Source: Chryseobacterium sp. Bi04 (GTDB taxonomy: Bacteria > Bacteroidota > Bacteroidia > Flavobacteriales > Weeksellaceae). Taken from it: a DNA stretch of 64,000 bases. The notes beneath the pieces are model-generated. The model was not told the DNA's origin. It searched no databases and saw nothing but the letters and a program-made list of their open reading frames with translations. Positions 10,102 to 21,312 of this stretch are shown one piece after another. The stretch spans positions 62,001 through 126,000 of the forward strand of contig NZ_CAKKLP010000001.1 of the NCBI RefSeq assembly GCF_918698085.1. Direction: 5' to 3'. Position 1 is the stretch's first letter. Each line of letters starts with the position of its first letter. Both the position numbers and the translations under genes were made by a program.

Positions 10102-10746
10102 ATGCAAAAAATAATCAAAAATATTTTTAAAATTTTCCTGCTTCTTTTTGTGGCAGGAATTATTTTTATTGCCTGGGCAAATTATAGTATAAAAAAAGAA
10201 AGTGAAGCATTTCTATTTTATAGCACAAAAGATGTTCCCCAGGCAAAAACAGCTTTGCTTTTGGGAACCGGCAAAACACTAAGCAATGGAATGCCAAACG
10301 CCTATTTCTACAATAGAATCAAAGCAGCCACAGATCTTTATAAAAGCGGAAAAATACAGTACATCATCGTAAGTGGAGACAACAGCACCAAAGATTATAA
10401 TGAACCGGAAGATATGCTGCTTACTTTAATGCAGCAAGGAATTCCACAGGATAAGATCATTATGGATCACGCCGGATTCAGAACTTTAGATTCTGTAGTA
10501 AGGGCAAAAGAGATCTTCGGACAGACAAAGCTGGTTATTATTTCCCAAAAATTTCATAATGAAAGAGCTGTTTTCCTGGCCAGAAAAAATGGAATGGAAG
10601 CATTTGGATACAACGCTGCAGATGTAAACAAATATGCAGGTTTAAAAACCAATATGCGGGAGTATCTTGCTAAAGCTAAAGTATATTGGGATTTGATTTT
10701 CGGAGTAGAACCGAAATTTGGAGGAGAGAAGATTATAATCCCGTAA
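10102..10746 (+). CDS. SanA/YdcF family (DUF218) protein
   Basis: 214 residues with an N-terminal membrane anchor (residues 7-30, IFKIFLLLFVAGIIFIAWANY), then a DUF218 domain: ALLLGTGKTLSNGMPNAYF, IQYIIVSGDNSTKDYNEPEDM, DHAGFRTLDSVVRAKEIF, and LVIISQKFHNERAVFLARKNG. The order and motifs match SanA of enterobacteria, which affects envelope barrier function and vancomycin exclusion at high temperature; the biochemical reaction is not settled. It starts 15 bases after lspA, so it is probably part of the same transcript. Confidence 0.88.
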   Translation: MQKIIKNIFKIFLLLFVAGIIFIAWANYSIKKESEAFLFYSTKDVPQAKTALLLGTGKTLSNGMPNAYFYNRIKAATDLYKSGKIQYIIVSGDNSTKDYNEPEDMLLTLMQQGIPQDKIIMDHAGFRTLDSVVRAKEIFGQTKLVIISQKFHNERAVFLARKNGMEAFGYNAADVNKYAGLKTNMREYLAKAKVYWDLIFGVEPKFGGEKIIIP

Positions 10747-10790
10747 AGGTTTTCAAATTTTTATAGGGCTAGAGATTATAGGCTAGATTT

Positions 10791-10860
10791 AAGTTTCGGC
10801 TAAAGCCAGATTTGGTAGGTTTATTATGAAAGCGGACTAAAGTCCGCTCCTATTGAATTT
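10791..10860 (+). repeat. Dispersed 71-nt element, good copy
   Basis: Opens AAGTTTCGGCTAAAGCCA and ends CTCCTATTGAATT, both identical or nearly so to the copy at 43490-43560. The second hairpin is GCGGACT-AA-AGTCCGC here and GGGCT-AA-AGCCC there, so both arms changed together while the centre and flanks stayed. It lies between the SanA-like gene and trpS. Confidence 0.8.
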
Positions 10861-10869
10861 TAATAATAA

Positions 10870-10911
10870 GTCTTGGTTCTTCGTTCTTGATTCTTGGTTC
10901 TTGATTCTTTT
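10870..10911 (+). repeat. Heptamer tandem tract
   Basis: Six consecutive seven-base units of the form TTCTTGR: GTCTTGG, TTCTTCG, TTCTTGA, TTCTTGG, TTCTTGA, TTCTTTT. It lies nine bases after the 71-nt element and about 35 bases before the trpS -7 box. Confidence 0.75.
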
Positions 10912-17231: not shown

Positions 17232-18512
17232 TTAAATTCCGAAAGCGGCTTTAATTTCCCCTACTTTGTCTAATTTCTCCCACGTGAAAAACTCAAGATC
17301 TTTCAGCGTAAGTTCATTTTTATGTCCTTTATTGAACGTTTTATCAGCTACATAATGATCTTTACCCATGTGACCATAAGAAGCCGTTTCCAAATAGATA
17401 GGATTTCTTAATTTAAGATTCTGCTCAATAGCATAAGGTCTTAAATCAAAGATCCCTGAAACTTTTTTAGCAATTTCACCGTCATGAAGATCTACTTTTG
17501 CAGTTCCGTAAGTATTAATATATAATCCACAAGGCTCCGCAACACCGATGGCATAAGAAACCTGTACCAAAACTTCGTCAGCAATACCCGCAGCCACTAA
17601 GTTTTTAGCAATATGTCTTGTTGCATAGGCCGCACTTCTGTCTACTTTTGAAGGATCTTTTCCGGAGAAAGCACCACCACCGTGAGCTCCTTTTCCACCG
17701 TAAGTATCTACAATGATTTTTCTACCTGTAAGGCCGGTATCTCCGTGAGGCCCTCCGATTACGAATTTACCTGTCGGGTTGATATGGTATTTGATCTGAT
17801 CATTGAATAAAGCTTTGATCTCTTCAGTCTGCTGTGCCACCACTCTAGGCACTAAGATATTCTTGATATCTTCACGGATCTTATTCAGCATTTCTTCTTC
17901 AGTTCCGAAATCATCATGCTGCGTAGAAACGACAATAGAATCTATTCTGATTGGTTTGTGATCATCAGAATATTCAATAGTTACCTGGCTTTTTGCATCC
18001 GGACGAAGATAAGGGATTTCTTTATTTTCCCTTCTGATATTGGAAAGTTCTTTAAGAATTGTATGGGCTAAATCTAAAGCAAGAGGCATGTAATTAGCCG
18101 TTTCATTAGTGGCATAACCGAACATCATCCCCTGGTCACCTGCTCCCTGTGCGTTGGCTTTGGCTTCAAAAGATTCATCTGTTACCGCTCTGTCCACACC
18201 CTGATTGATATCGGGAGACTGCTCATGGATGGCGGAGATTACCCCACAAGAATCTCCATTGAACATATATTCTCCTTTTGTATATCCAATTCCATTGATT
18301 ACTTCTCTGGCAATTGTTTGAACATCAAGGTAAGCATCAGATTTTACTTCTCCTGCCAATACTACCTGCCCTGTAGTCACAAGAGTCTCACAGGCAACTT
18401 TAGAACTTTTATCGTATGCTAAAAAGTGGTCGATTAATGCGTCGGAGATCTGATCGGCGATTTTATCCGGATGTCCTTCTGAAACAGATTCAGATGTAAA
18501 TAAATAAGACAT
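17232..18512 (-). CDS. metK: S-adenosylmethionine synthetase
   Basis: 426 residues. It makes S-adenosylmethionine from methionine and ATP, releasing phosphate and pyrophosphate. Signature stretches are [19 protein letters not shown] (ATP site, His15-equivalent), [23 protein letters not shown], and the [19 protein letters not shown] loop. It is somewhat longer than the roughly 385-residue E. coli enzyme, as is common in Bacteroidota. The 5' untranslated region carries a SAM-II riboswitch (18581-18631), which would reduce expression when the product is abundant. A terminator follows the gene. Confidence 0.98.
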
Positions 18513-18580
18513 ATTATTCTTTGTTTTTTAGATTAAAAAAATTTGAAGAAAAATAAGAATAAAATTGCCCAAAAAGAATA

Positions 18581-18631
18581 CTGTTTTAGCATTTTTTTAT
18601 AGAGGTTGCAATCAGGTCAAATTTTTCCTCG
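18581..18631 (-). ncRNA. SAM-II (SAM-alpha) riboswitch upstream of metK
   Basis: On the minus strand the leader contains GAGG, AAAAATTTG, ACCTGA, TTGCA, ACCTC, then TATAAAAAAAT, GCTAAAACAG. It has the conserved elements of SAM-II in order and spacing: AUUU, seven bases, UUGCA, sixteen bases, GCUAAA. P1 forms by GAGG with CCTC. The pseudoknot forms by CTG in the loop with CAG after GCTAAA, where other SAM-II members use different complementary bases. P1 is short (4 bp). It begins a few bases after the predicted transcription start and ends 68 bases before the metK ATG. Confidence 0.8.
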
Positions 18632-18644
18632 TCGTAAACGTCAG

Positions 18645-18652
18645 CAAATTTA
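18645..18652 (-). promoter_or_regulatory. Probable metK promoter -7 box
   Basis: TAAATTTG on the minus strand. A start about six bases downstream would place the SAM-II aptamer at the very 5' end of a 125-base leader. Confidence 0.6.
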
Positions 18653-18740
18653 AGTACTATTTTTCTAATACTCAAAAATTTTGTTTACTAATTATAATTT
18701 TGTTTAAATTAATGACTTATATCATTTTAGAGCATCCTGA

Positions 18741-19691
18741 CTATTGTGGCTTTATGCTTACAAATTCTTTAGGACTTTCATGATAGTTCAATTTAAGCTC
18801 TAAAGAAGTTTTGATAGAATGTGATAATTCGTCAATAATTTTCTGTTTAAAGGTCGGCTTATAATATATAATACTGATCTCTCTGTATGGGAATGGCTTC
18901 TTAAATCTGAAGACATTTTTTTTCTGCTCTTCTGAAAGCTGGCTTAAGGCAAGTTCCGGTAAAATACTAATTCCTCCTACTTTATCTACCATATGTACCA
19001 ACGTCTGAATATTGGAAGCTAAGAAATCTAAGTTTTTAGGCTTTAATGTATTTTCTTTCAGATGACAGATATTTTCGAACTGGTTTCTAAGACAGTTTCC
19101 TTCTTCAAGCAACCATACCTTTTCTACATTCAGATCTTCAGGAATAATATAAGAGTTCTTTTTGTTAGCTTCAGTATTGGAACTGTAGATCATCAGCTCT
19201 TCATTGAATAGAAAATCCTGATAAAACTCATCAGCTGTATCATAAGGAGTGGAAATAATGCCCGCATCCAGTTCTCCTGCTTTTAACGCTTTGATAATAT
19301 TATCGGTTGTCATTTCCTTTACATTCATCTGAATCTTAGGATTATCTTCCAGGAATTTAAAAATTTCTGTAGGCAGAATAAAAGAAGAAACAGTTGGAAT
19401 AATACCCAGATTAATAGTTCCTCCTAAAATATTATTCAAAAGATTGGCCTTGTTTTTCAGTTCATTGACAGATTCTATAATAACCTTAGCCTGATCAATG
19501 ATCTGAAGACCTACATCTGTGGTACGGATCGGGTGTGTAGTTCTGTCAAAAACCTTCACATCCAGTTCGTCCTCAAACTTCTGTATCATTGCACTTAAGG
19601 TAGGTTGGGTAATGAAGCATGCCTGGGCTGCTTTTCCAAAATGTTTATACTTATCAACAGCGATAAGATACTCCAGTTGCTGAATGTTCAT
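18741..19691 (-). CDS. oxyR: LysR-family peroxide regulator OxyR
   Basis: 316 residues. The N-terminal helix-turn-helix is typical LysR (MNIQQLEYLIAVDKYKHF, AAQACFITQPTLSAMIQKFE). The effector domain contains GNCLRNQFENIC with Cys200 and Cys209 separated by eight residues, exactly the spacing and context of the redox pair Cys199/Cys208 of E. coli OxyR (HCLRDQAMGFC). Oxidation by hydrogen peroxide would form the disulphide and switch promoter binding. It is divergent from katA, the classical target. The promoters of both genes lie within 19712-19761. Confidence 0.94.
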   Translation of the reverse strand: MNIQQLEYLIAVDKYKHFGKAAQACFITQPTLSAMIQKFEDELDVKVFDRTTHPIRTTDVGLQIIDQAKVIIESVNELKNKANLLNNILGGTINLGIIPTVSSFILPTEIFKFLEDNPKIQMNVKEMTTDNIIKALKAGELDAGIISTPYDTADEFYQDFLFNEELMIYSSNTEANKKNSYIIPEDLNVEKVWLLEEGNCLRNQFENICHLKENTLKPKNLDFLASNIQTLVHMVDKVGGISILPELALSQLSEEQKKNVFRFKKPFPYREISIIYYKPTFKQKIIDELSHSIKTSLELKLNYHESPKEFVSIKPQ

Positions 19692-19711
19692 TTGATTAAT
19701 ATTATCTATTA

Positions 19712-19761
19712 CAAAGATATAATGTTTTTGCTATTAGCAATTAAAAATTCAAGTAAATTTG
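19712..19761. promoter_or_regulatory. Divergent oxyR/katA promoter with shared palindrome
   Basis: The palindrome TTGCTATTAGCAA (19728-19740) sits between a minus-strand -7 box TATCTTTG (19719-19712, towards oxyR) and a plus-strand -7 box TAAATTTG (19754-19761, towards katA). Its TTG ends serve as -33 elements in both directions, with spacers of 18 and 23 bases, within the 17-23 base range known for flavobacterial promoters. The palindrome is therefore also a candidate OxyR operator. Confidence 0.65.
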
Positions 19762-19824
19762 ATATTCACTACCTTTACAGAGGTATTTAGAAATAAAGAA
19801 AACAATTATTCAAATCATCGATAT

Positions 19825-21312
19825 ATGGATTCTAAAAAATTAACGTTAAGTAACGGCACGCCTTATTTTGAGCATCAGGATTCCCAGACGGTAGGACCAA
19901 GAGGCCCGGTATTACTGCAAGACTTTGTTCTTCAGGAGAACCTTGCCCATTTCGTTAGGGAGAGGATTCCTGAAAGAATTGTACATGCTAAGGGGAGTGG
20001 AGCGTACGGAACCTTTACCGTAACCCATGATATCAGTAAATATACAAAAGCAAAGCTATTTTCAAAAGTAGGTAATTCATGCAGAATGTTTGCAAGATTT
20101 TCTACCGTAGGAGGAGAAAAAGGAAGTGCAGATACGGCAAGAGATCCAAGGGGATTTGCTTTAAAATTTTATACAGAAGATGGAAACTGGGATCTTGTAG
20201 GGAATAACACTCCTGTTTTCTTTATTAAAGATGCTAAAAAATTTCCGGATTTTATACATACTCAAAAAAGACTTCCTAAAACCAATCTAAAGAGTGCCAC
20301 TATGATGTGGGATTTCTGGAGTTTCAATCCGGAGTCTCTTCACCAGGTTCTTATTTTAATGTCAGACAGAGGAACACCTTATGGTTTCAGACATATGCAT
20401 GGTTTTGGATCTCACACTTTTTCCATGATCAATGAGCAGAACGAAAGAGTATGGGTAAAGTTTCACTTCAAAACAAAACAGGGGGTAAAAAACTTTACGG
20501 ATGAAGAAGCCGTAAAAATGGCTGGAGAAAATCCTGACTTTGCCCAGGAAGACCTCTGCAATTCTATTGAAAATGGAGATTTCCCGAAATGGACTATGTA
20601 TATCCAGGTGATGACTGAAGACCAGGCAAAAGATTTCAGATGGAATCCTTTTGATGTTACCAAAGTATGGTTCCATGATGACTTCCCTCTTATTGAGGTA
20701 GGTGAAATGGAGCTCAATGAAGTTCCTGTCAATTATTTTGCCCATGTTGAGCAGTCTACGTTTTCTCCCAGCAGCCTGATTAACGGGATCAGCTTTTCAC
20801 CGGACAAAATGCTTCAGGGAAGACTGTTTTCTTATCCTGATGCTCACCGATACAGGGTTGGGGTAAATGCCCATCAGCTGGAGGTGAACAGATGTCCTTT
20901 TGCTGTTAATAATTATCAAAGAGACGGCTATATGGCAGATTCAAGCCAATATCAGGATAAACCCAATTATCACCCCAACAGCTTTGATGATATCACGCCT
21001 GATCCGTCTTATAAAAACTATGAGTATGAACTGGACAGCGCTCATGTCGCCAACTATAACAGAAATGAAAACGACAGTGATCATTATACCCAGCCAGGCC
21101 TTCTTTACTCAAAAGCAATGAATGCTGAAGACAGGGAACACCTGATTAACAACATCGTAGGAAGCATGAAAGGGATCTCTGGGCCCAAGAGAGAAGAGAT
21201 CATCAACAGGCAATTATGTCACTTTTTTAGGGCTAATATCGAACTTGGCATGAGAGTGGCTTCCCAATTAAATGTCAATATCGATGCAAATATGATGAAT
21301 CATTCCAAATAA
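19825..21312 (+). CDS. katA: Catalase (heme, small-subunit type)
   Basis: 495 residues from the ATG at 19825; an upstream TTG frame start lies inside the promoter. It breaks down hydrogen peroxide in the cytoplasm. Catalytic His54 is in RIVHAKGSGAYG and Asn127 in LVGNNTPVFF. The heme Tyr337 lies in RLFSYPDAHRYRVG. RDPRGFALKFYTEDGNWD and VNRCPFAVNNYQRDG are family signatures. The size matches clade 3 catalases. Expression is expected to be controlled by the divergently encoded OxyR. Confidence 0.97.
   Translation: MDSKKLTLSNGTPYFEHQDSQTVGPRGPVLLQDFVLQENLAHFVRERIPERIVHAKGSGAYGTFTVTHDISKYTKAKLFSKVGNSCRMFARFSTVGGEKGSADTARDPRGFALKFYTEDGNWDLVGNNTPVFFIKDAKKFPDFIHTQKRLPKTNLKSATMMWDFWSFNPESLHQVLILMSDRGTPYGFRHMHGFGSHTFSMINEQNERVWVKFHFKTKQGVKNFTDEEAVKMAGENPDFAQEDLCNSIENGDFPKWTMYIQVMTEDQAKDFRWNPFDVTKVWFHDDFPLIEVGEMELNEVPVNYFAHVEQSTFSPSSLINGISFSPDKMLQGRLFSYPDAHRYRVGVNAHQLEVNRCPFAVNNYQRDGYMADSSQYQDKPNYHPNSFDDITPDPSYKNYEYELDSAHVANYNRNENDSDHYTQPGLLYSKAMNAEDREHLINNIVGSMKGISGPKREEIINRQLCHFFRANIELGMRVASQLNVNIDANMMNHSK

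Follow-up and report, generated by a model that had tools for sequence, protein, structure and literature searches.

The locus studied here raises the question of how metK is controlled by the leader that precedes it, in a window (the whole stretch of DNA analysed) of 64,000 nucleotides from Chryseobacterium sp. Bi04. An earlier note had placed a SAM-II riboswitch in this leader, and the position, spacing and pseudoknot of its motif were borne out on the minus strand, where the motif runs from GAGG at 18630 to the end of GCTAAAACAG at 18581. Its P1 consists of only four standard pairs, as had been claimed, and the pseudoknot between the CUG loop and the CAG following GCUAAA can be read in the sequence. 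The region 18636-18576 was confirmed, at the level of sequence and covariance model, as a SAM-II riboswitch aptamer by a full-length cmscan match to RF01726 (SAM-II long loop), whose 67.4 bits (E 7.5e-11 over the whole window) exceed the gathering cut-off of 44 bits, and this match in the metK leader is the single one in the 5.07 Mb genome. The ORF downstream is metK according to TIGR01034 (506 bits, cut-off 309). The covariance-model check proposed earlier was thus answered by a significant score, obtained with RF01726 instead of the RF00521 model that had been named: RF00521 is rejected as the family of this aptamer, having no match in the window at E<=10 and none in the whole genome, with the control genomes of that search likewise without signal. 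The aptamer family is already known, and the aptamer itself is routine.

The distance of 68 bases between the end of the motif (18581) and the metK ATG (18512-18510) is as originally given, and the leader is rich in U. On the other side of the aptamer, where a -7 box immediately upstream had been claimed, TTTG and TAAATTTG were indeed read in the sequence, the TTTG being what we take to be the upstream box of a Bacteroidota-type promoter. From this predicted promoter an RNA start is expected near 18640, and 14 bases separate the end of TAAATTTG from the start of P1. The reported -7 consensus is TAnnTTTG at -12 to -5 (PMC9723704).

Table 1. Positions in the window of the metK gene and of the elements read or predicted in its leader.
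Feature	Position	Strand	Basis
SAM-II (long loop) aptamer, RF01726	18576..18636	-	cmscan score of 67.4 bits against a cut-off of 44 (E 7.5e-11)
P1 5' strand GAGG	18627..18630	-	cmscan alignment; covariation of pair 2
P1 3' strand CCTC	18602..18605	-	cmscan alignment, covariation, folding
Pseudoknot 5' strand CTG	18613..18615	-	sequence reading; genus counts
Pseudoknot 3' strand CAG	18581..18583	-	sequence reading; genus counts
metK, methionine adenosyltransferase	17232..18512	-	ORF; TIGR01034 506 bits
Predicted Bacteroidota-type promoter: TTTG 18676-18673, 20-base spacer, TAAATTTG 18652-18645	18645..18676	-	sequence reading; -7 consensus PMC9723704
Predicted anti-aptamer	18545..18568	-	free fold; window z -4.5 vs shuffles; coevolution over 82 genera
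Predicted anti-start strand TTATTCTT	18555..18562	-	constrained fold; leader-start coevolution
Start-proximal A-rich strand AAGAATAA, predicted partner of the anti-start strand	18514..18521	-	constrained fold

The smaller number of cases reported from Bacteroidota, mentioned in the earlier note, is not borne out by the genomes searched, in which the family is not rare. RF01726 was found above cut-off in all 118 searched genomes of the window's genus, its own genome counted, and in 185 of 197 genomes of the family (29 of 33 genera). At E<=0.001 it was found in 270 of the 395 genomes of the order, belonging to 82 of 108 genera (266 genomes above cut-off), and in 45 of 296 genomes of the phylum (41 above cut-off), the genome draws at these four ranks overlapping one another. 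Part of the matches from these searches make up loci L001-L257, some of them overlapping, and metK lies downstream of RF01726 in 251 of the 257; the remaining six are matches of 30.9-36.2 bits, under the cut-off. Weak second matches in five genomes of the genus were rejected, four lying inside one conserved coding region and the fifth preceding an unrelated 787-aa ORF. The coding region concerned is presumably ffh. RF01726 was absent from all nine genomes of genus g17, of the window's own family, and Rfam searches of three g17 metK leaders (L259, L260, L261) and of one g16 metK leader found nothing. SAM-I is present in both g17 genomes searched for it, though without a detectable metK SAM-II. 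In g34 and some other genera an inserted, apparently hairpin-forming sequence lies between P1 and GCUAAA (L071-L081, L213-L217 and other loci of family f2), the aptamer match being of at least 100 bases in many of these.

For the comparison of leaders, 233 of the 257 loci were parsed, giving 231 distinct leaders, while 24 failed the pattern; five of the latter are weak matches (L082-L086) and the other 19 were reviewed. Four missing genera were added by hand, bringing the sample from 78 to 82 genera, L212 (31.9 bits) was excluded as no metK was seen there, and each genus was represented by the leader with the lowest locus number. The start-region fold, the P1 and pseudoknot counts, the control pairings and the sub-strand tests cover the 78 genera only. 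In the permutation test, leaders were swapped between genera within one family and the pairing energy of own leaders was compared with that of swapped ones. As regards the aptamer itself, the covariation that had been put forward as a check was obtained for P1, whose second pair is A-U in 42 genera, U-A in 35 and U-U in one, the other three pairs being invariant G-C in the 78 genera. For the pseudoknot the covariation is only modest, because the triple is CUG/CAG in 54 of the 78 genera, a different Watson-Crick triple in 4, and in the remaining 20 a fixed register rule yielded no perfect triple.

Folding and permutation tests show that the leader 3' of the aptamer is complementary to the 5' half of the aptamer and, as judged from predicted pairing energies, has coevolved with it. 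In the predicted ligand-free (free) fold of the window RNA, a long hairpin zips the leader onto the aptamer by pairing GAGGAAAAAU with AUUUUUCUUC and GAUUGC with GCAAUU, and this hairpin abolishes P1 and the aptamer core; on the DNA, the strands concerned are GCAATT 18568-18563 with GATTGC 18613-18608 and ATTTTTCTTC 18554-18545 with GAGGAAAAAT 18630-18621. Leader-aptamer pairing in the window reaches z -4.5 against 100 dinucleotide shuffles of the leader, and 67% of the 78 genera lie at or below the 5th percentile of their own shuffles. Own leaders paired at -16.89 and swapped leaders at -15.42 (sd 0.20) over 82 genera, corresponding to z -7.4 and to 0 of 10,000 permutations, the values for the 78 genera being -17.08 and -15.59 (sd 0.19; 0 of 10,000). 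Split by strand, the signal amounts to z -5.4 for GAGGA..UUUG and to a weaker z -2.5 for UUGCAACC. Taken singly, families f1 (z -4.8), f2 (z -3.2) and f55 (z -5.5) show the coevolution, and it is without significance in f59 (z -1.1, 675/5000) and in f56, with four genera (z -1.2, 1222/5000). Control pairings in the 78 genera were null, both for the promoter region with the leader (z 0.0 and -0.6) and for the aptamer with the coding start (z -1.2) or the leader with codons 2-9 (z 0.1).

In 85 leaders of the genus, conservation is seen in the anti-aptamer and again in the start-proximal stretch, with variable bases in between. By way of illustration only, the base before a downstream CAAAT matches the base after AUUUG in 18 of the 78 genera (G with C in 10, A with T in 8) and mismatches it in 5, the other 55 having no CAAAT. 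We also suspected a third helix, in which the GCUAAA strand would pair with UUUUAG or CUUUAG further downstream, but do not claim it, its test being weak (z -1.9, 165/5000) and the motif counts indecisive.

By the same tests, predicted pairing between the leader and its own start region is likewise stronger than expected. In the constrained fold of the window, the anti-start strand (UUAUUCUU) pairs with the A-rich strand before the start (AAGAAUAA) at the positions given in Table 1, and GGGCA 18570-18566 lies on UGUCU (DNA TGTCT, 18511-18507), which takes in two bases of the ATG. Over 82 genera, pairing of the leader upstream of -20 with the region from -20 to the AUG was -5.79 for own and -5.03 for swapped leaders (sd 0.18; z -4.2; 0 of 10,000), a signal that falls to z -2.3 (61/5000) in the 78 genera when the AUG is left out (-20..-1). 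Between the aptamer and -20..AUG no coevolution signal was obtained in these 82 genera (z -0.1). In the window, the mean probability that bases of -15..+3 are unpaired is 0.54 in the free RNA and 0.26 once the aptamer is held folded, a drop equalled by one of 20 shuffled leaders. Across the 78 genera it goes from 0.534 to 0.447, a fall of 0.087, compared with a fall of 0.026 (0.507 to 0.482) for shuffled leader middles (Wilcoxon p 2.5e-4), and no more than 28 of the 78 genera show a fall above 0.1, against 5 of 78 for the shuffled means. The overlap of anti-start and anti-aptamer strands is not enriched over random placement (49 of 78 genera, 52.0 expected), although enclosure in the zipped hairpin would in any case block such a strand. 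The start would not be fully open in the free fold of the window either, where a six-pair hairpin with coding UUAUUU takes up the GAAUAA that precedes the AUG.

The reading preferred here, with a probability of about 0.62, is that a SAM-II long-loop riboswitch exerts negative feedback on metK through an anti-aptamer/anti-start leader that controls translation. Without SAM, the leader segment would zip onto the aptamer (GAGGAAAAAU/AUUUUUCUUC, GAUUGC/GCAAUU), which would leave the metK start region more open and permit translation. With SAM, the aptamer would fold first during transcription and the freed leader segment would pair over the A-rich stretch (UUAUUCUU/AAGAAUAA) and over part of the AUG (GGGCA/UGUCU), whereby initiation would fall. 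Such control would be indirect, exerted on translation and without a Shine-Dalgarno sequence; we infer SAM binding, and likewise in which direction and at which level control acts. In a model without pseudoknot or ligand, the free, zipped fold reaches -21.5 kcal/mol and the constrained fold -9.9 kcal/mol; with a gap of about 11.6 kcal/mol in favour of the zipped form, SAM could prevail only while the RNA is being transcribed. In F. johnsoniae, of the same phylum, Shine-Dalgarno sequences are lacking and initiation is tuned by start-region structure and upstream adenines (PMC6847099). The suspicion voiced in the earlier note that control might be unlike the usual ribosome-site masking is supported by the leader coevolution tests. 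Its reading of the motif as a SAM-II aptamer upstream of metK is supported as well.

An alternative output for the same aptamer and anti-aptamer is a premature stop of transcription, intrinsic or Rho-dependent. Putative terminators have been described behind many SAM-II RNAs (Corbino et al. 2005, PMC1273637), SAM-II was mostly terminator-linked in alpha- and beta-Proteobacteria in the survey of Barrick and Breaker 2007 (PMC2258182), and the U-rich leader would fit. Against this, a simple consensus scan of the coding (minus) strand found no intrinsic terminator or similar site from the aptamer to metK (one terminator-like site lies on the opposite strand, within metK), and a terminator does not need the coevolution of leader and start, which is clearest with the AUG included. 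A premature stop is regarded as unlikely. The SAM-closed pseudoknot could also block ribosome entry by itself, as proposed for metX SAM-II and SAM-V; the aptamer fold is identical, and a 2024 review assigns SAM-II to the direct-occlusion group (PMC10907184). In this lineage, which lacks Shine-Dalgarno sequences (PMC6847099), 68 bases lie between the aptamer end and the AUG, and although this distance alone is no exclusion, the start of the Sinorhizobium metA SAM-II lying 74 nt away (PMC9373788), direct masking leaves the anti-aptamer coevolution unexplained and is held to be quite improbable. About as improbable is that the zipped hairpin serves mRNA stability or processing and that the aptamer match reflects folding rather than switching: Sinorhizobium SAM-II RNAs do also alter mRNA stability (PMC9373788), but a stability hairpin would not explain why leader and start have coevolved. 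A mere chance resemblance to a riboswitch, of the kind seen in the four weak matches (30.9-31.7 bits) within one conserved coding region, is refuted by the score of 67.4 bits, the single genomic match and the presence in 118 of 118 genomes of the genus, and its probability is negligible.

Beside the preferred reading of translation control by the leader stands the question of SAM sensing in the rest of the genome, which carries three SAM-I (RF00162) riboswitches (L262, L263, L264). One precedes a MetX-like ORF (TIGR01392, E 4e-33, under its cut-off) and the other two precede ORFs that look like TonB-dependent receptors. In the 395 genomes of the order, 229 have both classes, 41 RF01726 only, 15 RF00162 only and 110 neither. 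This differs from the 2007 survey, which reported no species with both SAM-I and SAM-II (PMC2258182), and the frequency with which one genome holds both classes points to separate RNA sensors for methionine supply and for SAM synthesis. Among the matches listed, at least 11 genomes of family f59 and at least one of f56 have SAM-I and SAM-II in divergent orientation on one contig, 65-121 bases apart. At one such place (L117; genome G644, contig C105) the SAM-I (10655-10754, minus) and the SAM-II (10821-10879, plus) share one intergenic region, with metK on the SAM-II side and, on the SAM-I side, metH as a 150-aa piece (TIGR02082, 221 bits; whole-protein cut-off 1011).

Two other features were observed in the window. 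A TPP riboswitch (RF00059, 76.4 bits) lies at 49692-49595 on the minus strand and is followed by a short ORF resembling ThiS and then by a long ORF resembling ThiC. In the region 18741-21312, a catalase-like ORF (19759-21312) adjoins, in divergent orientation, a regulator of the LysR type that is close to OxyR, though its 207 bits stay below the 329 of the curated cut-off.

At even odds, the SAM-II riboswitches of Flavobacteriales-like genomes have a conserved platform in two parts, an anti-aptamer and an anti-start, which regulates translation by covering an A-rich, Kozak-like start region rather than a Shine-Dalgarno sequence; they would operate alongside SAM-I within one cell, with metK under SAM-II and with methionine genes and probable receptors for uptake under SAM-I. 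A literature search, covering few subscription papers and text passages of the 2010 article, found no description of this expression platform. The coevolving leader offers a concrete, testable model of riboswitch control of translation in a phylum without Shine-Dalgarno pairing.

Compared with known systems, the aptamer has the same sequence and structure as RF01726, at 67.4 bits and with no difference seen; Rfam types this family as a cis-regulatory riboswitch, and SAM-II long loops were tabulated for Bacteroidetes and marine samples by Weinberg et al. 2010 (PMC2864571), the text passages of which do not deal with an expression platform. The RF00521 SAM-II of Corbino et al. 2005, for which SAM binding was demonstrated in Agrobacterium and which includes a handful of Bacteroides-group members, likewise has one stem and a pseudoknot with methionine or SAM genes downstream (PMC1273637); it differs by its many putative terminators, none of which was found here, and by the lack of a match of that model in the window. 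In metX SAM-II and SAM-V, pseudoknot SAM sensors for which OFF control of translation has also been proposed, the ribosome site is in or beside the pseudoknot (PMC6061858), whereas 68 bases and the putative anti-aptamer intervene between aptamer and AUG here, an arrangement that would fall outside direct occlusion. Sinorhizobium metA SAM-II controls translation too, from 74 nt away, and requires a Shine-Dalgarno sequence inside the riboswitch (PMC9373788), while none is expected for metK of the window. If the proposed mechanism is true, the metK SAM-II group would leave the direct-occlusion class.
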